Below are positions 6,860 to 56,117 of a stretch of 58,046 bases of DNA, one piece after another (the first letter of the stretch is position 1; every line of letters begins with the position of its first letter). Under the pieces are notes generated by a model. It searched no databases, was not told the DNA's origin, and saw nothing but the letters and a program-made list of their open reading frames with translations. This DNA is from Cohaesibacter sp. (GTDB lineage: Bacteria; Pseudomonadota; Alphaproteobacteria; Rhizobiales; Cohaesibacteraceae), in NCBI GenBank assembly GCA_025800145.1, contig JAOXSH010000056.1, forward strand, positions 1 to 58,046. Direction: 5' to 3'. The translations under genes and the position numbers were made by a program.

Positions 6860-7166
6860 CTTACATAAAGCGTGATTGAGACCAGAACAATAAGATTGTT
6901 CATTTATGATCAATTTGCCAAAAATCAAGGCCACCTGCTTCATCTGACTTTATGGTTTGGCTCATCTGATGAAATGGCAGAGCAACTTGCAAGAGCGATG
7001 GTTATGACGCAAGTGTTATGTTTCTTTACGGCTTTTTACATTCCATCGACGCAAAAATCGCGTATGCTCAGTATATGAACATGATGGCATGACCAGACTA
7101 TGCCAGTAAATGCTGTCATTTCAGCATTCATGACATGACTGACGGTTGAACAAGGAGACCTTTGAC

Positions 7167-8204
7167 ATGACGAGCGCAGGACTTACAGACGGGTTCGAGC
7201 CCAATCAGGGTTCCTTGGTTGATCCCTTTGGCCGTCAGGTCAGCTATTTGCGGGTTTCTGTCACTGATCGTTGTGACTTTCGCTGTTTTTATTGCATGTC
7301 CGAGCATATGAATTTCTTGCCGAAAAAGGAAGTTCTCTCGCTGGAAGAGTTGGACCGGCTCTGCTCTGCTTTTGTTGATCATGGGGTCAAACGTTTGCGT
7401 CTGACCGGTGGTGAACCTTTGGTTCGCAAGGGTATTTTGTCACTGATTTCCTCCCTTTCACGCCATCTAGACAGTGGATCTTTAGATGAGCTGACCATCA
7501 CCACCAATGGCTCGCAGCTCAAGACAATGGCCAAAGATCTGGCCTCTATGGGTGTGAAGCGCATCAATCTGTCTCTCGATACCTTGCAGGAAAAACGCTT
7601 TGCAGACATCACCCGTTGGGGACGGTTTGGGCAAGTTATGGATGGGATTGAAGCCGCCCTTGCAGCTGGTATCCATCTCAAAATCAATGCCGTGGCCCTG
7701 AAAGGGGTCAATGATGATGAATTTGACGATATGATTCGCTTCTCTCATGAACGGGGCATGGATCTGACCATTATTGAGACCATGCCGATGGGCGAGATTG
7801 ATGGGGATCGTCTGGATATGTATTTACCGCTCTCTGCGGTTAAGCAACAATTGGCCCAAAGCTGGAATTTGGAGCCAATCGCCTATAAAACCGGCGGTCC
7901 GGCCAGCTATATGCGGGTTCAGGAAACTGGCGGACGTGTGGGTTTTATCACGCCGATGACCCATAATTTCTGCGAGAGTTGCAACCGGGTGCGTGTCACC
8001 TGCACCGGTATGCTTTATCTGTGCCTTGGACAAGAAGATTCTGCCGATCTTCGCGCGCCTTTGCGGGCCTCGGAAAGCAATGATTTGTTGCACCAAACCA
8101 TTCGCGAGGCTATCAGCCGGAAACCCAAGGGTCATGATTTTGTCATTGACAGAGAGAATAATCGCCCCTCTATTGGGAGACATATGTCTGTGACCGGAGG
8201 CTAG
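7167..8204 (+). CDS. moaA: GTP 3',8-cyclase (molybdenum cofactor synthesis)
   Basis: The 345-aa radical SAM enzyme converts GTP to 3',8-cH2GTP, the first step of molybdopterin synthesis (with MoaC). The N-terminal radical-SAM cluster is C36-x3-C40-x2-C43 in [10 protein letters not shown]. The C-terminal substrate-binding cluster is C269-x2-C272-x13-C286. The chain ends in SVTGG, the essential Gly-Gly tail. I start at ATG 7167 because AAGGAG lies nine bases upstream. Small hairpins (AATGCTG/CAGCATT at 7109-7128) precede it but no Moco riboswitch was recognised. The pathway partners mobA and mobB lie 6-7 kb downstream; moaB, moaC, moaD, moaE and moeA are not in the window. Confidence 0.97.
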
Positions 8205-41764: not shown

Positions 41765-42685
41765 TTACGAAAAAACACTTATTTTCTGTAACCACTCAAC
41801 CATATGTCTTAAAGCCTGACTTTGCTGTGCCCGGCGTGGATAGACCAGATAAAAGTCTTCTTCATTGCGCCAAATCATAGAGCCGACCGGGAGCAGAGAC
41901 CCCAGTGCGATTTCCCGCTCGACCAGAATTTGAGGGGCCAACACCACCCCTTGGCCAGCAACAGCTGCTTCAATTGCCAAGGCGGTTTGATTGAAATGCA
42001 AATGTTGTCGCGCAGAGGCTGTCTCGCTGTGTGGTTTTTCTGCTGTCATTTGGCTTTCACGCAGCATTGCCCAATAGGATGGCCAATGATTATGGGCATC
42101 GGTCAATAAAGGGATATGGTGCGCGCAACTGGCATCCAGCCCTTGCTGCAAGTCAGGATGATGCTCAAACAAGGAAGGCGCAGCATAAGCTCTGATCTCC
42201 ATTGGCAAGAAAGGCTCCACCCTCAAGCTTTTTGCAAAAGGCGGCTTGGTCAGACGGATGGCCAAATCCGCCTCCTGTCGATCAAATTCCGATAGTTTTT
42301 CTGTTGCCAGAATTTTGACATCAATCTCAGGATATTGATGTGTGAAGCCGCTAAGTCTGGGCATTAGCCACTTTGTGGCCAAGGATGGGGTAAGGCTCAG
42401 GGTCAAGCTTTGGGACTGGGTTTCTATATCCTTGCTGGCTTCCAAAATGATATCAAGCGCTTGGGCTATTTCCTGATGATAGCGTTTACCTTGCGCGGTT
42501 AGAGAGAGGCCTCTTGCTTTTCGTTCAAACAAGTCCTGCCCCAGATACGCTTCCAGACCGCGCACTTGTTGCGCAACAGCTCCTTGGGTCAGATGCATTT
42601 CTTCTGCGGCCAGACGAAAATTCAAATGGCGCGCGGCTGCCTCAAACATGGGTAAGGCTTTGAGCGGAGGCAAAGGTTTTTTCAT
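41765..42685 (-). CDS. LysR-family transcriptional regulator
   Basis: The 306-aa protein has an N-terminal HTH (LKALPMFEAAARHLNFRLAA, then HLTQGAVAQQVRGLEAYLGQ) and a substrate domain with SLTPSLATKWLMPRLSGF, the GcvA-like subgroup. It is divergent from the SDR gene, with 134 bp between start codons, a classic LysR-target arrangement. The RND operon lies downstream on the same strand after 145 bp. The start at ATG 42685 fits the HTH position. Ligand is unknown. Confidence 0.9.
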   Translation of the reverse strand: MKKPLPPLKALPMFEAAARHLNFRLAAEEMHLTQGAVAQQVRGLEAYLGQDLFERKARGLSLTAQGKRYHQEIAQALDIILEASKDIETQSQSLTLSLTPSLATKWLMPRLSGFTHQYPEIDVKILATEKLSEFDRQEADLAIRLTKPPFAKSLRVEPFLPMEIRAYAAPSLFEHHPDLQQGLDASCAHHIPLLTDAHNHWPSYWAMLRESQMTAEKPHSETASARQHLHFNQTALAIEAAVAGQGVVLAPQILVEREIALGSLLPVGSMIWRNEEDFYLVYPRRAQQSQALRHMVEWLQKISVFS

Positions 42686-47978: not shown

Positions 47979-48052
47979 TGGCTGGGGATCCTGGACTCGA
48001 ACCAGGACCGACGGAGTCAGAGTCCGCTGTTCTACCATTAAACTAATCCCCA
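47979..48052 (-). tRNA. tRNA-Gln (anticodon CTG)
   Basis: On the minus strand the acceptor stem TGGGGAT pairs with ATCCCCA, followed by G and an encoded CCA. The anticodon arm reads GCGGA-CTCTGAC-TCCGT, giving anticodon CTG (codon CAG). GGTTCGAGTCC forms the T arm. The length is 74 nt including CCA. Confidence 0.95.
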
Positions 48053-48164: not shown

Positions 48165-48212
48165 AAGAAAACCGGTTTGATTGGCTTTGTGGCGATGGCT
48201 CAAACCGGCTTT
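48165..48212 (-). terminator. Rho-independent terminator of the metal-transport operon
   Basis: CCGGTTTGA (48172-48180) and TCAAACCGG (48200-48208) form a perfect 9-bp stem. On the minus strand it is followed by TTTTCTTTTCC. Confidence 0.85.
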
Positions 48213-48219
48213 TGGGCTA

Positions 48220-48759
48220 TCAATCGTGATTATGGCCGGCATGACTATGCTGGGTGGCATTGTCTGCTTCAATTTCAATCGTGACATGCATTTCGCCACG
48301 ATCAAAGACCAAGTCCATCTCAAAACTTTCCCCTTTGTGATAATCTTGCGAGAGAGCATTCAAGCGCAAGGCAATCGCCTTTGGGGCTAAATCCAGATGA
48401 CGGCCTGCCTTGATGGGCACAGGCTTGTTGATTGGCAGATATTTTGGCGCGCCATCTTTTAGCTGAAATCCAACCAACTCCACCGATTGGGCATTGCTAG
48501 CTTCGCCGCCTTTGAAGATCACCGTGGCATCAGAGCGATTGTCCAATTCCACAAAAACTAATCCATTCTCGCCTTTATGGCTTTCGCGCATCCAGCCATG
48601 CAAGGCATGAATGCCCTTAAATTCGCTTTTATGCGTCTCATGCTTATGCTCACCATGCTTATGATGATCATGTTTTGCTCCACTTCCAGCATAGGCTGTA
48701 AAGGCCGTGAGAGACAGGGCGCTGGCAATCAGCATGGCGAACAGGTTGTTGGATTGCAT
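48220..48759 (-). CDS. His-rich periplasmic protein with a PCu(A)C-like fold
   Basis: The 179-aa protein has a signal peptide to about residue 24 (AMLIASALSLTAFTAYA). The mature N-terminus is His-rich (KHDHHKHGEHKHETHKSE) and the C-terminus ends HSHAGHNHD. The body follows the copper chaperone PCu(A)C pattern: HGWMRESHKGENGLVFVELD, SVELVGFQ, PVPIKAGRHLDLAPK, and LDLVF-like FEMDLVFDRGEMHVTI. The usual Met/His copper ligands of the H-M-X10-M...H-X-M type are not conserved, so the His tails probably carry the metal. AAGGAG precedes ATG 48759. It is the last gene of the ABC operon, 32 bp after the permease. Confidence 0.8.
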   Translation of the reverse strand: MQSNNLFAMLIASALSLTAFTAYAGSGAKHDHHKHGEHKHETHKSEFKGIHALHGWMRESHKGENGLVFVELDNRSDATVIFKGGEASNAQSVELVGFQLKDGAPKYLPINKPVPIKAGRHLDLAPKAIALRLNALSQDYHKGESFEMDLVFDRGEMHVTIEIEADNATQHSHAGHNHD

Positions 48760-48791
48760 CTTGGTTCTCCTTGTGTGACAGACAGTTTGCG

Positions 48792-50126
48792 TCAGGCTCG
48801 CAAATCCCTGATTGCAGGCCGAAGCAAGGCCAGCCCTGCCGGGATCATAGCCAGTAAAATGGTGATAGAGACAAACCCGGCCAGTAAATGAAATTCTGGC
48901 CATTGCAGGCTTGCCTTGATCAGGATATCGGTGCGCTCACTGATGATGTTTGACAAAAGAGCCGTTGTCACAAAGCCGAACCCCAAGCCAGACACAGCCC
49001 CTGCCCCAATCAAAATGGCGGCAAAGCTCCAAACGATCGAAAAGACAAACCGTCTTGGCGCACCGATGGCTCGTAACAGCGCCAACCGTCGGGAAAAGAG
49101 GCGGGTTAAGATGACAAGCCCTGTCAGGACACCCCCGGCCACCAGAATTTGTGTGATAACGGCCATGATGGACATGACGGACCGGATGTCCCCCAAAATA
49201 GCATGCAATTGGGACAGTACGGCCCCGGGAAAGATGGCCATACTCTCTTTGCGGGTAAATTCCGATTTCAACGCATAATTGGCCCAAAGCTCTTCTGCCC
49301 TAACCAAAATGGCGGGCGTGCCGGGAAAATAGTCTGGATCAAAGGGCGGGCCAAGGCGTGCACCTTCTTGCGGTTTATGGCCCGTTCCCATGCCATGAAC
49401 CAGCCAAACGGCCTCAACTGGCACCAAAATCGCCTTGTCCCATGGGCTGCCCGTTGGTTGCATACGGCCCACAATGCGAAAGACTTCGCCTTCATGGGCG
49501 TCTGCTTCTGCACTATGACCAGTGCCATGCGCCGGGGTGAAGTGACTGCCCAATGGCAAATCAATCGCGCTTCCTACCACTGCTTCAAAGGGTTTTTCGA
49601 AAGCGCGTCCTTTTCTTAATTCACCGGAGAGATGCTGCAAAAAATCCAATGTTGTCCCGACAACCGGCGCGCCCTGATAGCTGTCACCAAATGCAATGGG
49701 GGCTGCAAAACTGACATGATCATGATTGGCAATTTCATTATAGAGTTTGCCATCAAGGAGCGACAAATCCGTTGGTTGTAAATAAACCGCTGCCAGAACA
49801 TTGGTCACCTCACTGCCCGGTGCAGCAATGATGAGATCAAACTTTTCTGCGGCTTTCGCTGTGCCTTGACGCAACCCCCGCTCTTGGGCCAAAAGCCCTA
49901 CCCCAAGCGCCACAGAGGTTGCAATCAACGCAATGAACATCAGGCTGGTCCAGCGAAATTGCCACAGCATTGCCCGCACCAGAGGAAGCGGTCTGAAGCC
50001 GTGCGAGACATAAAGACCAACCATGATGCATGGCATCAAATATAGGGCGAATAAAAGGCTGTCCTGCATGAATGGCGAGAGCGCGTCCCATAGATCAAGC
50101 ATGAAGAGCGGTAGAAAATCTTTCAT
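48792..50126 (-). CDS. MacB/FtsX-type ABC transporter permease
   Basis: The 444-aa protein has an extra hydrophobic segment at about 22-42, then TM at about 58-80, a large periplasmic domain (about 85-320) and three C-terminal segments forming an FtsX domain (MAVITQILVAGGVLTGLVIL, RRLALLRAIGAPRRFVFSIV). The periplasmic part contains FDLIIAAPGSEVTNVLAAVY, the MacB-like core opening, and a His-bearing loop (HFTPAHGTGHSAEADAHEGE) that could meet metal. FtsX/MacB transporters act mechanically across the periplasm rather than as channels. The start overlaps the ATPase stop by ATGA. Confidence 0.88.
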   Translation of the reverse strand: MKDFLPLFMLDLWDALSPFMQDSLLFALYLMPCIMVGLYVSHGFRPLPLVRAMLWQFRWTSLMFIALIATSVALGVGLLAQERGLRQGTAKAAEKFDLIIAAPGSEVTNVLAAVYLQPTDLSLLDGKLYNEIANHDHVSFAAPIAFGDSYQGAPVVGTTLDFLQHLSGELRKGRAFEKPFEAVVGSAIDLPLGSHFTPAHGTGHSAEADAHEGEVFRIVGRMQPTGSPWDKAILVPVEAVWLVHGMGTGHKPQEGARLGPPFDPDYFPGTPAILVRAEELWANYALKSEFTRKESMAIFPGAVLSQLHAILGDIRSVMSIMAVITQILVAGGVLTGLVILTRLFSRRLALLRAIGAPRRFVFSIVWSFAAILIGAGAVSGLGFGFVTTALLSNIISERTDILIKASLQWPEFHLLAGFVSITILLAMIPAGLALLRPAIRDLRA

Positions 50127-50944
50127 GATCCTACCTCTTCCTTGCCTTGATTGAGGCCTTGTCTTTCCCTGTTTTGCTTTTCCCTGTCGTTTCGCTCAGT
50201 AATTTTGCCGTCTGTGACCTCAAGGATGCGATCCATTTTTTCGCATAAGGATATGTCATGACTGACGACAATCAGGGTTTTGTGCTGTCTGCGCACCAGA
50301 GCGGTCAAATCTTCAATCAAGTGATCAGACGCCCTGCGATCAAGGCTGGCTGTTGGCTCGTCGGCCAACAGAATGGGCGGATCATTGGACAAAGCACGGG
50401 CAATCGCGACGCGCTGCCTTTCTCCGCCAGAAAAGCTGGCAATGGTTCGCTTGGCGATATCCTTGATGCCCAAATGACGCAAAGTCTGCTCGGCGCGTTG
50501 CTGCACTGCCTTTTTGTTATGTCCCGGCATATAGCCGTTGGATATAGTGGCATTGGCAAGGGCGTCCATTTCTTCAAAGAGCAAAAAATCCTGAAAAATC
50601 ATACCCAGAGTTTCGCGTCTGAAACGCGCACGCACTTCAGAGGAGAGTTTGACCATATCCTGCTCTCTATTGTTTTTCTCTTTGTTGCCGGTTGCTTGGG
50701 GGAGAGACCAGCATATTGAGCCGGACATATGCTCTGCCAAGCCTGCCAGCGCGAAGAGCAAGGTTGATTTGCCTGCACCCGACGCGCCCTTGATGGCGAT
50801 GGTCTGGCCGTGAAAAATCTTCAGCTGCGGCACATCCAAAAGCAATCGGTCTTTCTCTCCCCTCACCTGCAAATCCTTGACTGTCAGAATTGCGTGAGGC
50901 TCGGACCCTTCATCCATAAAATCAGAACCGTTCATAGCTTGCAT
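50123..50944 (-). CDS. ABC transporter ATP-binding protein (MacB/LolD type)
   Basis: The 273-aa ATPase has Walker A GASGAGKST, Q-loop FQDFLLFEEMDAL, signature SFSGGERQRVAIARAL, Walker B PILLADEPTASLD and the switch His in VVSHDIS. It belongs to the LolD/MacB-like group, matching its permease partner, with which it overlaps by four bases. It starts inside the last codons of the Tat-protein gene (overlap 23 bp if the first ATG is used; 50935 and 50917 are alternatives). It powers the permease at the inner membrane. Confidence 0.92.
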   Translation of the reverse strand: MQAMNGSDFMDEGSEPHAILTVKDLQVRGEKDRLLLDVPQLKIFHGQTIAIKGASGAGKSTLLFALAGLAEHMSGSICWSLPQATGNKEKNNREQDMVKLSSEVRARFRRETLGMIFQDFLLFEEMDALANATISNGYMPGHNKKAVQQRAEQTLRHLGIKDIAKRTIASFSGGERQRVAIARALSNDPPILLADEPTASLDRRASDHLIEDLTALVRRQHKTLIVVSHDISLCEKMDRILEVTDGKITERNDREKQNRERQGLNQGKEEVGS

Positions 50945-51377
50945 TCACAACTCGCACACGGCTGACAAAGCCGGTTTCAGGATCCTTGAAAGAACCAAGC
51001 GCCAAACGTCCCTTGACGACAATTTTCTGATTGAACGGAATGACTTTCAAAATACGCTTGGTATAGATGGCAAGAATATCATCGGGCCATTCTGCATCTG
51101 TTTCGCAAAAAGGGCAGACAGCGAGAGGGCGTTTTGTGAGGACGAAAAAACTGGATTCGGCCTTTAAAGGTGGGGCCATAAAGCCTTCGACCAGAATGGT
51201 TTGCTCTTCGTGAGCTTTGGCAAAGTCAGAAAAGCTCAGATCCTTATTATAAAGCTCGCGCATTTTGATGCGGGGGATCTGGGCATGAGCATCGCGCTGC
51301 ATTCCTGGTAAGACAGACATGAGCCCTGTTGCAGCTGCGATTGCACTTTTGGTTAAAAAATCACGGCGATCCATCAT
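50922..51377 (-). CDS. Tat-exported CxxC protein (DUF3299-like position in operon)
   Basis: The 151-aa protein has a twin-arginine signal (MMDRRDFLTKSAIAAATGLM) ending near AHA. The mature domain has FFVLTKRPLAVCPFCETDAE, a CPFC motif that could bind metal or a thiol partner. IVVKGRLALGSFKDPETGFV near the end reads like a small beta-barrel. I do not firmly assign a family. In the PA4063-PA4066/Zrg type of operon, the equivalent place is taken by a DUF3299 protein of similar size. Tat export suggests folding or cofactor loading before export. GAGG lies upstream of ATG 51377. The stop lies within the ATPase start region. Confidence 0.7.
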   Translation of the reverse strand: MMDRRDFLTKSAIAAATGLMSVLPGMQRDAHAQIPRIKMRELYNKDLSFSDFAKAHEEQTILVEGFMAPPLKAESSFFVLTKRPLAVCPFCETDAEWPDDILAIYTKRILKVIPFNQKIVVKGRLALGSFKDPETGFVSRVRVVNASYERF

Positions 51378-51404
51378 CAGATCAACCTCATTTGTTTCAT
51401 TGGA

Positions 51405-51436
51405 AATGGAAGACAAAATAATTTCCATCTTCCATT
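51405..51436. promoter_or_regulatory. Inverted repeat in the phoA-Tat protein gap
   Basis: AATGGAAGA (51405-51413) and TCTTCCATT (51428-51436) form a 9-bp inverted repeat around 14 nt. There is no T run. It could be an operator for the transporter genes or a processing hairpin. Confidence 0.45.
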
Positions 51437-51458
51437 ATCGCTTAGGTTCAGCCAGCTT

Positions 51459-52949
51459 TTATTTGGCGTTGGCTGCGTGCATCATGACGTTGAAGATATA
51501 ATTTTGCTCAATGGTGCCATTGAGCAGATGCGCCCAAGGGCCGCGGGCATAAACTGCAACATCTTCGCCAGAATGAGTCTCGGAAGAGCGCGGGATCAAA
51601 GCCTGTTGTGTATAGTCAGGATCCGTTGCTTGCTCCATGGTGATGTCACCACGAGCACCCACCCAATTCATATCTTCGCGCAAGACAGAGCCTGCACCAT
51701 TGAGGTAGCCGATGACGGTGTAAGGTTTGCCATCTTTGCCGGTTTGCGGCTTGTCGGAATATTTCACACCATTTTTATCGATGCCCATGCAAATGCCTGT
51801 GATCGGATTCCCGCGACCGCAATAGCCGTTAAAGGCAATGGCATGTTCGTGATCGGCAGTAACAATGATCAGAGTATCTTCTGGCGAGGTCAAGTCAGCC
51901 GCTTTGGCAACCGCTTGTGCGAAGGCGATACCATCGGTGACAACGCGATGAGCATTGCCGTCATGGTTGGCATGGTCCACACGGCCTGCTTCGATGGACA
52001 GGAAGAAGCCTTTTTCGTTGCCTTGCAACGCCTTGATTGCCGCTTCTGTCATTTGTGCCAAAGAAGGCTCGCCTGCCCGGTCATGCTCATATTTCATATG
52101 GGAGCTTTCAAACAGGCCGATGATTGGCTTGTCGGATTTCAGATCCAGCGCCTTGAAGCTTTCCTCATTCCAGACATAACGTGCGCCAGCAGCTTCCAGC
52201 TCTTTGATGAGATTTTTATCATCGGTGCGTTTGCCACTTTTACCTTCCTGATCCTTCATCGCTTTGGGGATGAAGTGGCGACGACCGCCACCGAATGCAA
52301 CATCAACAGTGCCAGCCTTCATCGCGTCCATCAGCTGGGTTGCGATATCTTTTTGGGTGCAGCCTTCTGGCAGCTTTGAATTGTCTTCAAAGTTACGATC
52401 AGCAGAATGTGCATAGGCAGATGCCGGGGTCGCGTGGGTGAGACGAGCTGTGGAGATAACGCCAACAGATTTGCCCTGCTTTGTCAGCAATTCTGCGATG
52501 GTGGCAACTTTTGCCCCTTCCACTTGCGAGCAATCCCCACGGTTCAGGCTTTCATCCACCCCAATAACGCCTGCCTTGGTTTTGACACCGGAATGCATCG
52601 CGGTGCCTGTTCCGGCAGAATCCGGGGTTTGGGCGTTGACATTATAGGTTTTGACAAGGCCAAGATGCGGGAAATTTTCGTGAGCAAGAACATGCTCTTC
52701 GCCCAATTTGCCCATTGTCTGACCCTGATAGACACGGGTCGCATAATTGGTGCCAACCCCATTGCCATCTGCAATCAAGATGATCACATTTTTGGCGCGC
52801 TTGGTAATTGGCTGAACGGCCATGCGCTCTTTCAAAGCGGTTTGGGCATTCTTGTACCATTCATTGGATTTCTGTGGCATATGGCCATCAGCAAAAGCAA
52901 CTGTGCTGGACATCAGCACCGCAGCAAAGGTGAGAAAAGACTTTTTCAT
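51459..52949 (-). CDS. phoA: Alkaline phosphatase (PhoA type)
   Basis: The 496-aa periplasmic zinc/magnesium phosphomonoesterase has a signal peptide to about residue 20. Asp61 (IADGNG) is a metal ligand. The phosphorylated Ser is Ser111 in TPDSAGTGTAM. GRVDHANHDGNAH, TADHEHAIAF and SETHSGEDVAVYARGP supply the remaining zinc ligands. PhoA needs two Zn ions per active site, which fits the adjacent metal-transport genes. The reverse complement of 52994-53000 reads CTGTCAT, a possible PhoB half-site. The gene may head a five-gene minus-strand operon, since only 81 bp separate it from the Tat-protein gene. Confidence 0.95.
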   Translation of the reverse strand: MKKSFLTFAAVLMSSTVAFADGHMPQKSNEWYKNAQTALKERMAVQPITKRAKNVIILIADGNGVGTNYATRVYQGQTMGKLGEEHVLAHENFPHLGLVKTYNVNAQTPDSAGTGTAMHSGVKTKAGVIGVDESLNRGDCSQVEGAKVATIAELLTKQGKSVGVISTARLTHATPASAYAHSADRNFEDNSKLPEGCTQKDIATQLMDAMKAGTVDVAFGGGRRHFIPKAMKDQEGKSGKRTDDKNLIKELEAAGARYVWNEESFKALDLKSDKPIIGLFESSHMKYEHDRAGEPSLAQMTEAAIKALQGNEKGFFLSIEAGRVDHANHDGNAHRVVTDGIAFAQAVAKAADLTSPEDTLIIVTADHEHAIAFNGYCGRGNPITGICMGIDKNGVKYSDKPQTGKDGKPYTVIGYLNGAGSVLREDMNWVGARGDITMEQATDPDYTQQALIPRSSETHSGEDVAVYARGPWAHLLNGTIEQNYIFNVMMHAANAK

Positions 52950-52993: not shown

Positions 52994-53000
52994 ATGACAG
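52994..53000 (-). promoter_or_regulatory. Possible Pho-box half-site upstream of phoA
   Basis: On the minus strand CTGTCAT lies 45 bp before the phoA ATG, and no second clear half-site follows at 11-bp spacing. Regulation by PhoB is expected for phoA but is not shown by this fragment alone. Confidence 0.3.
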
Positions 53001-53080
53001 TTTTATTGCAGCGGATATTTTGTGATTGCAATTGACCTTTATCCTGCCTCGCAGTCCAAAGGGCTGAGCACCTTTGTGGG

Positions 53081-53124
53081 CTAGAGAATTTTGAATAAAC
53101 ACGTCGTTATTCAAAATGCTCTAG
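53081..53124. repeat. Palindromic CTAGAG repeat, family C-related
   Basis: CTAGAGAATTTTGAATAA (53081-53098) pairs with TTATTCAAAATGCTCTAG (53107-53124) with one mismatch around an 8-nt loop. The CTAGAG ends match those of the neighbouring repeat. Confidence 0.88.
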
Positions 53125-53136
53125 TCTTTGTTTCTA

Positions 53137-53186
53137 AGCATATTTTTGTCCGAAAACCGCACACACTTTTCGAAAAATATGCTCTA
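53137..53186 (-). repeat. Dispersed repeat, family C, second copy
   Basis: On the minus strand this reads CTAGAGCATATTTTTCGAAA then AGTGTGTGCGGTTTTCGGAC, almost identical to 31022-31060. AGCATATTTTT (53137-53147) and AAAAATATGCT (53173-53183) form its stem. The CTAG end supplies the stop codon of the adjacent MerR gene. Confidence 0.88.
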
Positions 53187-53624
53187 GTGGTCAAGGCGTT
53201 TATCGATTTTCACATGATCGCCAAGACATTGATCATGATTGTTCAAAACCTCTAAGATCCGGCAATTGGCAACATCATGATGGCTGCATCCGCCAATCAT
53301 ATTCTCCAGCTCTTTTTTCAGAGCTTGCAATCTGGCTATATGCTGATTGACCAATTCCAATTGTTGAATGGCCAATTGATCGGCAGTCTCGCAAGACGCA
53401 TCGGGATGGCGTGTTAAATCCAGCAAGGCGCGGATAGCATCCAGCCCAAAACCCATATCACGGGCATGGCGAATGAAAGTCAGGCGCTCCATTGCCTTGG
53501 CATCATAGCGGCGCTGTCCGCCTTCGCTGCGCTCTGGCTCTTCCAGCAAATCGATTTTTTCATAATAGCGAATGGTGGGCACCTTGGTGCCTGTTCTGCG
53601 CGATAATTCACCAATGGTCAGCAT
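53184..53624 (-). CDS. MerR-family divalent metal-responsive regulator (ZntR/CadR/PbrR-like)
   Basis: The 146-aa protein has an N-terminal winged HTH (TIGELSRRTGTKVPTIRYYE), a coiled dimer helix, and metal-ligand Cys78 (DASCETADQL), Cys113 and Cys121 (GGCSHHDVANCRILE). Cys78 distinguishes Zn/Cd/Pb sensors from CueR, which has Ser there. The 113/121 spacing is close to CadR and PbrR. Two extra His (SHH) lie in the loop. It is divergent from the P1B-type ATPase, whose promoter carries a MerR-type operator. The stop codon TAG comes from the end of an inserted repeat, so the natural C-terminus may have been altered. Confidence 0.92.
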   Translation of the reverse strand: MLTIGELSRRTGTKVPTIRYYEKIDLLEEPERSEGGQRRYDAKAMERLTFIRHARDMGFGLDAIRALLDLTRHPDASCETADQLAIQQLELVNQHIARLQALKKELENMIGGCSHHDVANCRILEVLNNHDQCLGDHVKIDKRLDH

Positions 53625-53718
53625 GGACTCTGTCCGGTTTTTTGCTTCATTTCTTCTCTATAAGTTGCCCTTGCGCAGCATAAAATCAACAGGTCTGTGA
53701 CTTTTTTTGCCTTTGCTC

Positions 53719-53749
53719 TTGAAGCTCTAGCCACTAGAGGCCGTAAACG
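53719..53749 (+). promoter_or_regulatory. MerR-type promoter/operator of the metal ATPase
   Basis: CTCTAG-CCA-CTAGAG (53725-53730 and 53734-53739) is a perfect inverted repeat. It sits between TTGAAG (53719-53724) and TAAACG (53744-53749), giving a 19-bp spacer. Over-long 19-20 bp spacers with a centred palindrome are the hallmark of MerR-activated promoters. Confidence 0.7.
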
Positions 53750-53801
53750 TGCCATCAGCCATACTATTTTTATGTCGTTTTGTTGCTGGAAGGCAAATGC
53801 A

Positions 53802-56117
53802 ATGGTTGATTCTGTCCCGTCTGATCTCAAAAGCTGCTGCGCTTCCCAAGCAGCCGTTAAGCCTGTCTTCTCTTCTTCCGGTTGTTGCAGCAAAAAAGAT
53901 GACAAGCCAGAGACGCATAAGCACCATCACGGATATACTCATGATAATCCAAAAACAAGCCCGCAAGGCCGCTCTTTTCAGGTGATTGGCATGTGCTGTG
54001 CCGAAGAAGTTACCATGCTCAAAGCTCAAATTGGGCCGCTTGTCGGTGGGGCAGATTATTTGGGATTTGATTTGCTCAATGGCCGCATGGTTGTTCTGGA
54101 TGGTGCCAAGGCTATTTCTGATGCCGTCCTGATTGACGCGGTGGACAAAACCGGCCTGAGCGCAACAAAATGGGACAAGGAGACAGCTGATCAGGAGCGC
54201 TCCGTGCAGCTGTCTCGCCTCAAGCTCTTCACTCTGGGCAGTGCTCTGGCATGGCTGGGCGGTTTGCTTTTTCATTTGTTCGAAAAGGACGGTGGAGGCC
54301 TTCTGAGCCTGTTTGCAGGCCATGAAGGCAACGCCATGCCCCTCATCGAAATGGCGTTTTATGTGAGTGCTGCCGTGCTTGGTGCGCGCTATGTGGCCCC
54401 AAAGGCTTTCTTTTCCATTCGTCGTCTTTCTCCAGATATGAATTTATTGATGATGGTAGCCGTGGTTGGGGCAATGGTGATTGGAGAATTTTTTGAAGCG
54501 GCGACGGTTGCCCTTCTGTTTGCTTTGTCTCTCACACTTGAGGCATGGAGCGTTGGGCGCGCACGCACCGCTATTTCCGCTCTTCTCAGTCTTGCGCCAC
54601 AACAAGCCTTGAAGCTGGAGGCAGATGGCAGTGAGCGGCTTGTGCCAGCCGAACAGATCCTGCCCGGCGATAGCTTCATTATACGCGGTGGGGATCGGGT
54701 GCCTTTGGATGGTCTGATCCTGTCCGGTCGCAGTGCTCTTGATCAGGCACCCATTACCGGTGAAAGCATTCCCGTTGCCAAAGAAGAAGGCGATGAGATC
54801 TTTGCAGGCACGATTAATGGTGATGGCAGTTTGACCGTTCAAGCCACCAAAGCGGCCCATGATACCGTCTTGTCGCGCATCATCACTATGGTTCAGGATT
54901 CGCATTCCAAACGGGCTGATGTGGAACAATGGGTGGAGCGCTTTGCCAAAATTTATACGCCCGTGGTGATGGTCTTGGCCCTGTTGGTGTTTTTGCTGCC
55001 GCCTCTTGTGCTTGGCGGTCAATGGGCAGACTGGTTTTATAATGCGCTGGTTTTGCTAGTCATTGCCTGTCCTTGCGCTTTGGTGATTTCAACCCCTGTT
55101 GCAATTGTGGCCGCCCTTACCGCCTCCGCCCGGCATGGTGTTCTTGTTAAAGGGGGTGGTTTTATGGAATTGCCGGCTAAACTGGAGGCAATCGCTCTGG
55201 ACAAAACCGGCACCCTGACCCGCGGGGAGCCGGAAGTGCAGGATTTGATCGCTTTTGGTCTGGCACATGCGCGTGAGCTTTTGCAAATTGCCGCGAGTTT
55301 GGAGGCACACTCCTCCCACCCTCTTGCCCGCGCTATTCTGGCAAAAGCCAAACAGGATGGTCTGATTTTGGCACGTGTTGATGAGGTGCAGGCTCTTCCC
55401 GGTCGTGGTGTTCAGGGCTTGATTGATGGACGCGCTTATTGGCTTGGCTCGCCACGTTATGGGAATGAAAAAGGTCTTATGACGCCAATGATTGAAGACA
55501 TGATTGCCGATTTGCAAGCCAAAGGCCAGACCGCCATTGTGGTGGGGCATGAGGATGGAATTATGGGCCTGTTGGCTTTGGCTGATGCCATTCGGGATGA
55601 TGCACGCAATGTGATTGATGCGCTTCATGCACAAGGCGTCAAAACGATTGCCATGCTAACCGGCGATAATGAGCAAACGGCCAAAGCCGTTGCGCGATCC
55701 GTTGGCATTGATCAGGTTTATGCCAATTTGCTGCCTGAGCAAAAAGTGGATGCAATTGAAGCGCTGATGGCTGATCATAAGGTGGTGGCTATGGTGGGGG
55801 ACGGGGTCAATGACGCCCCCGCCATGGCACGAGCAAGCTTTGGCATTGCCATGGGGGCTGTTGGCTCAGACGCTGCCATTGAGACCGCCGATATGGCGCT
55901 TATGAGTGATGATATTGGCAAATTGCCATGGATGATTGGCCAGTCTCGTCGCACGCTTGGCATTATCAAGCAAAATATTCTTTTCTCGCTGGTGATAAAG
56001 GCTGTATTCGTTTCTTTAACCCTTTCAGGACTGGCCAGCATGTGGGGGGCGATTGTTGCTGATGTCGGTACATCTTTGTTGGTGGTTGGCAATGCCTTAC
56101 GCCTGCTCAGGCATTGA
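53802..56117 (+). CDS. zntA: P1B-2-type Zn2+/Cd2+/Pb2+-exporting ATPase
   Basis: The 771-aa inner-membrane pump exports divalent soft metals using ATP. The N-terminal region has Cys-Cys at 12-13 and 28-29, a His cluster at 39-47 (HKHHHGYTH), and a metal-binding domain with VIGMCCAEEV (CCxxE, Cys65-66). Membrane and catalytic motifs follow: PITGES, CPC at 423-425 (VIACPCALVIS), DKTGT with Asp467, HP in HSSHPLA, and GDGVNDAP. The last helix has ADVGTSLLVVGNALRLL, the Asp that selects group 2 metals. I start at ATG 53802 with GGAAGG upstream, because the longer frame begins inside the promoter. The divergent MerR sensor is its probable activator. Confidence 0.95.
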   Translation: MVDSVPSDLKSCCASQAAVKPVFSSSGCCSKKDDKPETHKHHHGYTHDNPKTSPQGRSFQVIGMCCAEEVTMLKAQIGPLVGGADYLGFDLLNGRMVVLDGAKAISDAVLIDAVDKTGLSATKWDKETADQERSVQLSRLKLFTLGSALAWLGGLLFHLFEKDGGGLLSLFAGHEGNAMPLIEMAFYVSAAVLGARYVAPKAFFSIRRLSPDMNLLMMVAVVGAMVIGEFFEAATVALLFALSLTLEAWSVGRARTAISALLSLAPQQALKLEADGSERLVPAEQILPGDSFIIRGGDRVPLDGLILSGRSALDQAPITGESIPVAKEEGDEIFAGTINGDGSLTVQATKAAHDTVLSRIITMVQDSHSKRADVEQWVERFAKIYTPVVMVLALLVFLLPPLVLGGQWADWFYNALVLLVIACPCALVISTPVAIVAALTASARHGVLVKGGGFMELPAKLEAIALDKTGTLTRGEPEVQDLIAFGLAHARELLQIAASLEAHSSHPLARAILAKAKQDGLILARVDEVQALPGRGVQGLIDGRAYWLGSPRYGNEKGLMTPMIEDMIADLQAKGQTAIVVGHEDGIMGLLALADAIRDDARNVIDALHAQGVKTIAMLTGDNEQTAKAVARSVGIDQVYANLLPEQKVDAIEALMADHKVVAMVGDGVNDAPAMARASFGIAMGAVGSDAAIETADMALMSDDIGKLPWMIGQSRRTLGIIKQNILFSLVIKAVFVSLTLSGLASMWGAIVADVGTSLLVVGNALRLLRH

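Follow-up and report, generated by a model that had tools for sequence, protein, structure and literature searches.

The window that we analysed is a 58,046-nucleotide stretch of a Cohaesibacter sp. genome (contig JAOXSH010000056.1), and among its genes we focused on a minus-strand operon of five open reading frames (ORFs) at positions 48220-52949. In order, the operon comprises phoA, the gene for a protein with a C-P-F-C motif (the CPFC protein), and genes for an ATP-binding cassette (ABC) ATPase, a MacB/FtsX-type permease, and a His-rich PCu(A)C-like protein. Nearly all close relatives keep the first four of these genes adjacent, an arrangement far above chance expectation. Because phoA almost always lies directly upstream in close relatives, our best guess, held tentatively and at nearly even confidence, is that an ABC module of the kind represented by ZrgABCDE in Vibrio and PA4063-PA4066 in Pseudomonas (the Zrg kind) has been recruited as a zinc supplier for the co-encoded PhoA. 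A zinc module for PhoA would be the simplest account of the phoA linkage, the candidate PhoB (PHO) and Zur boxes, the conserved His and Cys residues, the predicted export by twin-arginine translocation (Tat), and the MacB-like engine. The features concerned are:

51459..52949, minus strand: phoA, alkaline phosphatase (PF00245, E 4e-124; best PDB matches 4kjd and 1zeb)
50922..51428, minus strand: CPFC protein, predicted to be Tat-exported, likely a remote relative of DUF3299 (ZrgE/PA4066) (TIGR01409; hhalign; bridging proteins)
50123..50944, minus strand: ABC ATPase, LolD/MacB-like (PF00005, E 3e-31)
48792..50126, minus strand: MacB/FtsX-type permease with invariant His200, His211 and His244 (PF02687, E 4e-5; alignment of 13 permeases)
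48220..48759, minus strand: PCu(A)C-like protein, His-rich, accessory gene (PF04314, E 4e-11; HSHAGHxH tail); the coordinates assume the ATG at 48759 as start
52994..53011, minus strand: candidate PHO box CTGCAATAAAACTGTCAT, 2 mismatches, 62 bp 5' of the phoA start
48168..48212, minus strand: terminator-like inverted repeat with a T-rich tail, 3' of the operon (inverted repeat search; tail read from the sequence)

A first-pass annotation of this DNA had described five tightly packed genes on one strand, and we found all five ORFs at those positions with family matches. A gap of 30 bp separates phoA from the CPFC gene, the CPFC and ATPase genes overlap by 23 bp, the ATPase and permease genes overlap by 4 bp, and a 32 bp gap precedes the PCu(A)C-like gene; this spacing fits a single transcript. 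The terminator described after the operon fared less well. At 48168-48180/48200-48212 there is a 13-nt inverted repeat, with TTTTCTTTT after it on the minus strand. This is compatible with a terminator, but it is weak, and a consensus terminator scan called nothing 3' of the operon (6 calls in the whole window against a shuffle mean of 6.5).

Conservation and distribution of the phoA-linked block

The CPFC protein was present in 18 of 61 genomes searched, the window genome included, and phoA and the CPFC, ATPase and permease genes are adjacent in all 18 loci. A scan of named genomes confirmed at least 554 relatives, and we kept the best 80 of them, which biases this set to close kin. Among the assessable loci of these 80, phoA lies upstream in 77/78, the ATPase gene is present in 78/79 and the permease gene in 78/79, and all four genes are adjacent in 75/77. 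The four-gene block was likewise complete in 14/14 loci of an order-level set with longer flanks (14 of the 18 loci). In a sample of the phylum, 14/398 genomes matched; two of these matches were already in other sets, we set aside three weak matches (best E 2e-5 to 2e-4), and the nine strong loci give the block in 9/9. The locus sets overlap, with at least five shared contigs (L020/L034, L023/L036, L028/L049, L033/L079 and L189/L111). In the gene maps examined, flanking genes are common to near kin and differ between lineages, so the four-gene block behaves as a unit. One exception is L089 (around 7001-7429), where phoA and the CPFC gene stand without an adjacent ATPase and permease.

The co-occurrence expected by the first-pass annotation stands for the four-gene block, which is widespread, but not for the fifth gene. 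The PCu(A)C-like gene is found in only 38/74 assessable named loci, in 12/14 loci of the order set, and in 1/9 strong loci of the phylum sample. We conclude that it is optional and accessory to the module. The description of the operon as an alphaproteobacterial variant was also too narrow, since the module occurs in Halomonas/Vreelandella, in Granulosicoccus, and in a metagenome-assembled genome (MAG) of Oceanospirillaceae.

We also sampled the class, where 15/385 genomes were matched by the CPFC profile, 11 of them with E < 1e-20. Besides the window there are 14 such loci, 12 of which retain a CPFC match at the cut-off applied; phoA lies upstream in 3 of 11 assessable loci, and the PCu(A)C-like gene was found in 0/10. 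Near CPFC relatives are thus tied to phoA, whereas distant ones often are not, and we dropped an exclusive phoA linkage of the whole CPFC family because many distant relatives are unlinked. Three distant loci have other surroundings. At L116:644-6567, a CPFC relative lies by a pyrroloquinoline quinone (PQQ)-dependent dehydrogenase-type protein with a permease about 4 kb further, possibly the same module serving a different periplasmic metalloenzyme. At L119:2764-6553, the CPFC relative is convergent with genes for a same-family permease and a 445-residue protein that has no Pfam match at E 0.01. The solitary CPFC relative at L122:5974-7544 is divergent from what by eye is a ZnuA-like binding-protein gene, which makes another zinc link possible.

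Proteins encoded by the operon

The window PhoA matches PF00245 with 415 bits (cut-off 24.4), and its nearest solved structures are animal intestinal and placental enzymes (4kjd, 1zeb). Alignment to 4kjd showed that the PDSAGT, H-A-[ST]-P-A, E-x-GR-[IV]-D, TADH-x-H and SSETH blocks are preserved, which we take to be the active-site and metal-ligand blocks of PhoA. The operonic PhoA proteins of L018 and L019 have only ~26% identity to the window PhoA and a longer N-terminal part. In a PhoA tree of 59 rows, 55 of them different, operonic PhoA proteins split into two deep groups with 4 label changes needed, and 0/500 shuffles were as low; rows L120 and L171 represent a single gene, which the distance limit marked as solo though it is linked, and the label count was kept. 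The same module is found with both deep PhoA clades.

The CPFC protein carries a Tat signal (TIGR01409, 22.3 bits, cut-off 16.7), and an RR-type (twin-arginine) motif is present in 96/96 CPFC loci above 160 bits, a set in which a few genomes are represented twice. A Cohaesibacter MAG (L034) encodes a CPFC protein with 95% identity to that of the window. Both cysteines of C-P-F-C are invariant in the two family alignments, and among relatives the site reads C-P-F-C, C-P-H-C (C-P-x-C), C-P-Y-H or C-I-H. Such ligand-like swapping at one site suggests that the motif coordinates metal, as opposed to forming a redox pair.

The first-pass annotation had the CPFC protein replacing DUF3299. The window protein has no direct Pfam match to DUF3299, and a PDB search with a CPFC profile of 15 sequences returned no relative, 4hsp included. 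Aligned by hhalign to seven DUF3299 proteins, however, the CPFC profile gave E 5e-5 with a probability of 67. Among the four weakest class-sample matches of the CPFC profile, L124, L126 and L127 are above the Pfam DUF3299 cut-off and L125 is just below it; at L124 and L126, three neighbouring genes encode an ATPase, then a permease, then the DUF3299 protein. A DUF3299 profile finds 4hsp at 1e-42, and 4hsp is PA4066, for which similarity to the oligonucleotide/oligosaccharide-binding (OB) fold is described (PMC8561739). On account of the bridging proteins and the hhalign score, we dropped the idea that the two families are unrelated. The CPFC protein is likely a remote DUF3299 homologue, short of proof, rather than a substitute for one.

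The ATPase has LolD as its top NCBIfam match (E 1e-46), yet far below the LolD cut-off. The permease matches FtsX (PF02687) with 24.2 bits, slightly under the cut-off of 25.5, and gave no MacB_PCD match at E up to 1. His200, His211 and His244 are invariant in 13/13 aligned permeases, including four linked to DUF3299 (L143, L147, L124 and L126, at 22-24% identity to the window permease), and a MacB-like layout would place them on the periplasmic side. His-rich stretches follow His244 in the permeases of L126, L194 and L032. The DUF3299-linked permease at L126:5838-7259 has an extremely His/Asp/Glu-rich loop inserted past the third invariant His.

Two alternative explanations bear on this permease. 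In the first, a Lol/FtsEX-like mechanical device would act on PhoA in the envelope by releasing, folding, activating or positioning it, and metal would be secondary. The permease's solved matches, with LolF best and then ABC permeases including LolE, YbbP and BceB, would fit such a device, but all are weak and C-terminal; none of the ABC-type PDB matches starts before about profile position 299, which leaves the three-His region without a solved ABC structure that covers it by sequence. Mechanotransmission is attributed to MacB (PMC11481552), which also favours the device, whereas the His residues of the permease and the His tails of the fifth protein indicate metal, and by eye we saw no lipobox Cys at the PhoA N-terminus. 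We regard this explanation as quite improbable. The second alternative is a MacB-like exporter of a metal-binding small molecule or of surplus metal, as proposed for PA4063-4066. PA4064/PA4065 have been modelled as a MacB exporter, pyochelin-cobalt phenotypes are reported for PA4065, and PA4064-4065 are argued to export a pyochelin-cobalt complex (PMC11481552). PHO boxes and phoA are not suggestive of metallophore export, and we noticed no metallophore biosynthesis gene in the gene maps examined, where no dedicated search was made. An exporter is, in our judgement, even a little less probable than a mechanical device.

The fifth protein matches PF04314 (43.3 bits, cut-off 29.4), its best PDB matches are PCu(A)C proteins, and an HSHxGHxH tail is kept in 49/52 PCu(A)C-like proteins, which bears out the His-tailed PCu(A)C-like subunit described at first pass. 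The further claim that it replaces DUF2796 does not hold up, given that the gene is missing from about half of the named operons. A ZrgA/DUF2796 (PF10986) match covers residues 3-48 only and stays below the cut-off (E 0.027, 14.9 bits, cut-off 27.4). The copper-ligand motif of PCu(A)C proteins is HX10MX21HXM. The family match could point to copper handling by this protein together with the permease. At the template copper-ligand positions, however, 12/12 family members have V, Y, W or other residues, neither H nor M, and the promoter search, which covered PHO and Zur sites, found Zur-like boxes. We therefore dropped the fifth gene as a copper chaperone, and we consider copper handling by the module scarcely credible.

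PHO and Zur-like boxes upstream of the operons

The PHO consensus consists of two CTGTCAT repeats with a 4-nt spacer (PMC3131613). The window site upstream of phoA matches 12/14 consensus positions and 16/18 of the 18-mer, and it is one of the two best among 10 pattern matches in the window (shuffle mean 5.1). The other best match is at 42043-42060 on the plus strand. For Zur, we used a published core, GTTA-5N-TAAC (PMC4176598); the site is also described as a 7-1-7 palindrome (PMC7029138).

We examined promoters across relatives, where 108 loci gave 90 usable upstream stretches, 91 with the window and 83 without near-copies. PHO 18-mers scoring at least 14 occur in 21/83 loci compared with 7/830 dinucleotide shuffles, and Zur-like palindromes scoring at least 11 occur in 12/83 compared with 2/830. 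Random windows of the same loci, the phoA promoter included, gave 14/940 for PHO and 8/940 for Zur-like sites. The exact GTTA-5N-TAAC core was found in 5/83 loci, whereas shuffles averaged 0.12 (at most 2 in any of 200 rounds) and other windows gave 1/1449. Two of the 12 Zur-like sites are oddly placed: that of L054 is 340 bp upstream, and that of L111 lies within the longest ORF, 10 bp in, although a later start of this ORF is possible. Sites of both types reach their thresholds at seven loci (L029, L042, L055, L060, L073, L080 and L081); at L073 the PHO site that does so is on the opposite strand, and next to the Zur-like site there is a sense PHO site with a score of 14. Roseibium accounts for three of the seven, and therefore these represent fewer than seven independent events. 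Nine further loci, which include L031 and L032 from the 91 and L189 from the same contig as L111, gave a PHO site scoring 15 at L191, a Zur-like site scoring 12 at L189, and both together in 0/9.

Zur-like boxes also go with the fifth gene. In 78 assessable loci, those with a Zur-like box of at least 11 divide 11 to 0 in favour of the PCu(A)C-like gene, compared with 31 to 36 for boxless loci (Fisher p 6e-4, kinship ignored). At a score of at least 10 the division is 17 to 2 (Fisher p 4e-4, kinship again ignored). The PHO box has a weak link to this gene at most (p 0.04 at 13, 0.19 at 14).

We then considered both motifs in whole genomes. In the window's genome, the Zur motif precedes a znuC-like gene and, with one mismatch, a znuA-like gene, and znu- or folE-like genes lie beside it in four other genomes (all by eye). 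Fifteen Zur-pattern loci from six genomes comprise two phoA operons (L129, L130), seven sites by znu- or folE-like genes, and six by neither (by eye). The only perfect Zur-palindrome match of G011 (4.9 Mb) precedes its phoA operon, and the Roseibium genome of L055 has no match to the Zur pattern at up to one mismatch. The PHO pattern has 48 matches in the window's genome against 2 for the reversed control. Half of the PHO sites shown (16/32, from 30 loci) are within ORFs, and only one, that of L206, was recognised by eye as preceding a Pho-type gene (PstS-like), so the reversed control may be too lenient. Where they occur, the boxes would mean control by phosphate starvation through PhoB and, in several relatives, by zinc starvation through Zur.

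These boxes bear on another explanation, namely a Zrg-kind zinc importer that feeds the cytoplasm, with PhoA a client through regulation, because it draws down periplasmic zinc, rather than through contact. ZrgABCDE has been called a putative Zn transporter, and in V. parahaemolyticus a role of ZrgA in Zn acquisition is described (PMC9817125); the Zur-like boxes among relatives agree with import. Yet the best Pfam match of the permease is FtsX-like, if slightly sub-threshold, and the Pseudomonas counterpart, like that of Vibrio a gammaproteobacterial relative of the module, has been modelled as an exporter (PMC11481552). In addition, linkage to two separate PhoA lineages exceeds what shared regulation requires. 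We consider the importer unlikely, though it is the most probable of the alternatives to zinc supply for PhoA.

Proposed function and relation to known systems

PhoA is usually regarded as an enzyme that acquires zinc by itself. If a Zrg-type module supplies it with zinc, phosphate starvation would lead PhoB to turn on phoA plus the module, and in several relatives Zur would be an added zinc-starvation input. PhoA made in bulk would require periplasmic zinc. The CPFC protein would be folded and probably metal-loaded in the cytoplasm before Tat export, while the ATPase/permease pair would form a MacB-like mechanical engine in which His200, His211 and His244 handle metal. The optional His-rich PCu(A)C-like protein could act as a metal collector, and the engine would transfer zinc to PhoA or concentrate zinc next to it. 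The sequences show the gene content, the linkage, the promoter motifs and the conserved His and Cys residues; the regulation itself, zinc as the metal, its direction, and PhoA as the acceptor are points that we infer. More specifically, the operon could encode a dedicated ATP-driven machine for PhoA metallation, built from a Tat-exported DUF3299 (OB-like) carrier loaded in the cytoplasm and a His-bearing MacB-type engine, under PhoB plus Zur promoters in some lineages; this specific form seems doubtful.

Several observations weigh against zinc supply to PhoA. Among the 11 class-sample genomes with a strong CPFC match, 4 have it linked to phoA, 6 have it unlinked, and 1 could not be assessed. 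PF00245 matches 27/385 class genomes (26 above cut-off), 22 of which have no CPFC-profile match, 1 a weak unlinked one, and 4 a linked module; with only 4/27 carrying the linked module, PhoA has no general need of it. The CPFC proteins of L192, L194 and L195, from other classes of the phylum, are by eye without a twin-arginine motif. As to regulation, no Zur-like site with up to 3 mismatches lies near the window operon, and most relatives have neither a PHO nor a Zur box at the thresholds used. Finally, with at most one mismatch the Zur motif gave 23 strand matches in six genomes against 19 for the reversed control; it is hardly above the control genome-wide, and its significance depends on location.

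The kinship with the Zrg kind proposed at first pass holds through DUF3299, the shared permease His residues, and Zur-like boxes in some relatives. Common to the window module and to ZrgABCDE/PA4063-PA4066 are a separate ABC ATPase, a MacB/FtsX-type permease, and a likely remote DUF3299 relative; direct sequence comparison with the Zrg kind covered only PA4066, as 4hsp. The three permease His residues are shared with the four DUF3299-linked permeases of the alignment. Zur-like boxes in some relatives are in keeping with the Zrg kind, whereas the window copy has none. The window operon differs in having phoA directly upstream, a PHO box, predicted Tat export, and the optional PCu(A)C-like protein, as well as in the absence of a ZrgA/DUF2796 match above cut-off and in a CPFC protein below Pfam detection of DUF3299.

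Other known systems share parts of the module. PCu(A)C copper chaperones have PF04314 in common with the fifth protein, which differs by its lost ligands, its HSHxGHxH tail, and its place in a phoA operon. With the type VII ABC systems MacB, LolCDE and FtsEX, the module shares the ATPase family and an FtsX-like permease C-terminus, but its permease has the invariant His set and lacks a MacB_PCD match. We noticed no MacA or TolC gene beside the operon, although no search was aimed at either. In AztABCD of Paracoccus, a periplasmic protein (AztD) is reported to hand zinc on, a likeness in concept to the proposed zinc supply; unlike the window module, AztABCD is grouped with the cluster A-I metal ABC transporters. 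In the literature searched, with subscription journals mostly out of reach, we found no description of a phoA-linked ABC operon.

Two further genes of note lie upstream of phoA in the window. One (53184-53624, minus strand) encodes a MerR-family regulator that is CadR/ZntR-like below cut-offs, and the other (53697-56117, plus strand) a ZntA/Cd-type heavy-metal P-type ATPase. Both are also present at the sister locus L020 and absent from the other maps of the same genus that we viewed. Between phoA and merR, a strong 18-nt inverted repeat at 53081-53124 (CTAGAGAATTTTGAATAA / TTATTCAAAATGCTCTAG) may be a dispersed repeat. Downstream of the operon, at 47979-48052 on the minus strand, is tRNA-Gln (CTG), the sole tRNA found in the window.

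Zinc-phosphorus co-limitation has been proposed for the ocean, with alkaline phosphatase requiring zinc (PMC3865332). A promoter that combines a PhoB box with a Zur box would be a sign of such co-limitation at the genome level. The module is fixed to phoA in many genomes, which suggests that some bacteria deliver zinc to PhoA. The link to phoA may also shed light on the Zrg/PA4063-4066 systems, whose role is poorly understood: instead of simply importing or exporting zinc, they may deliver it to periplasmic enzymes.

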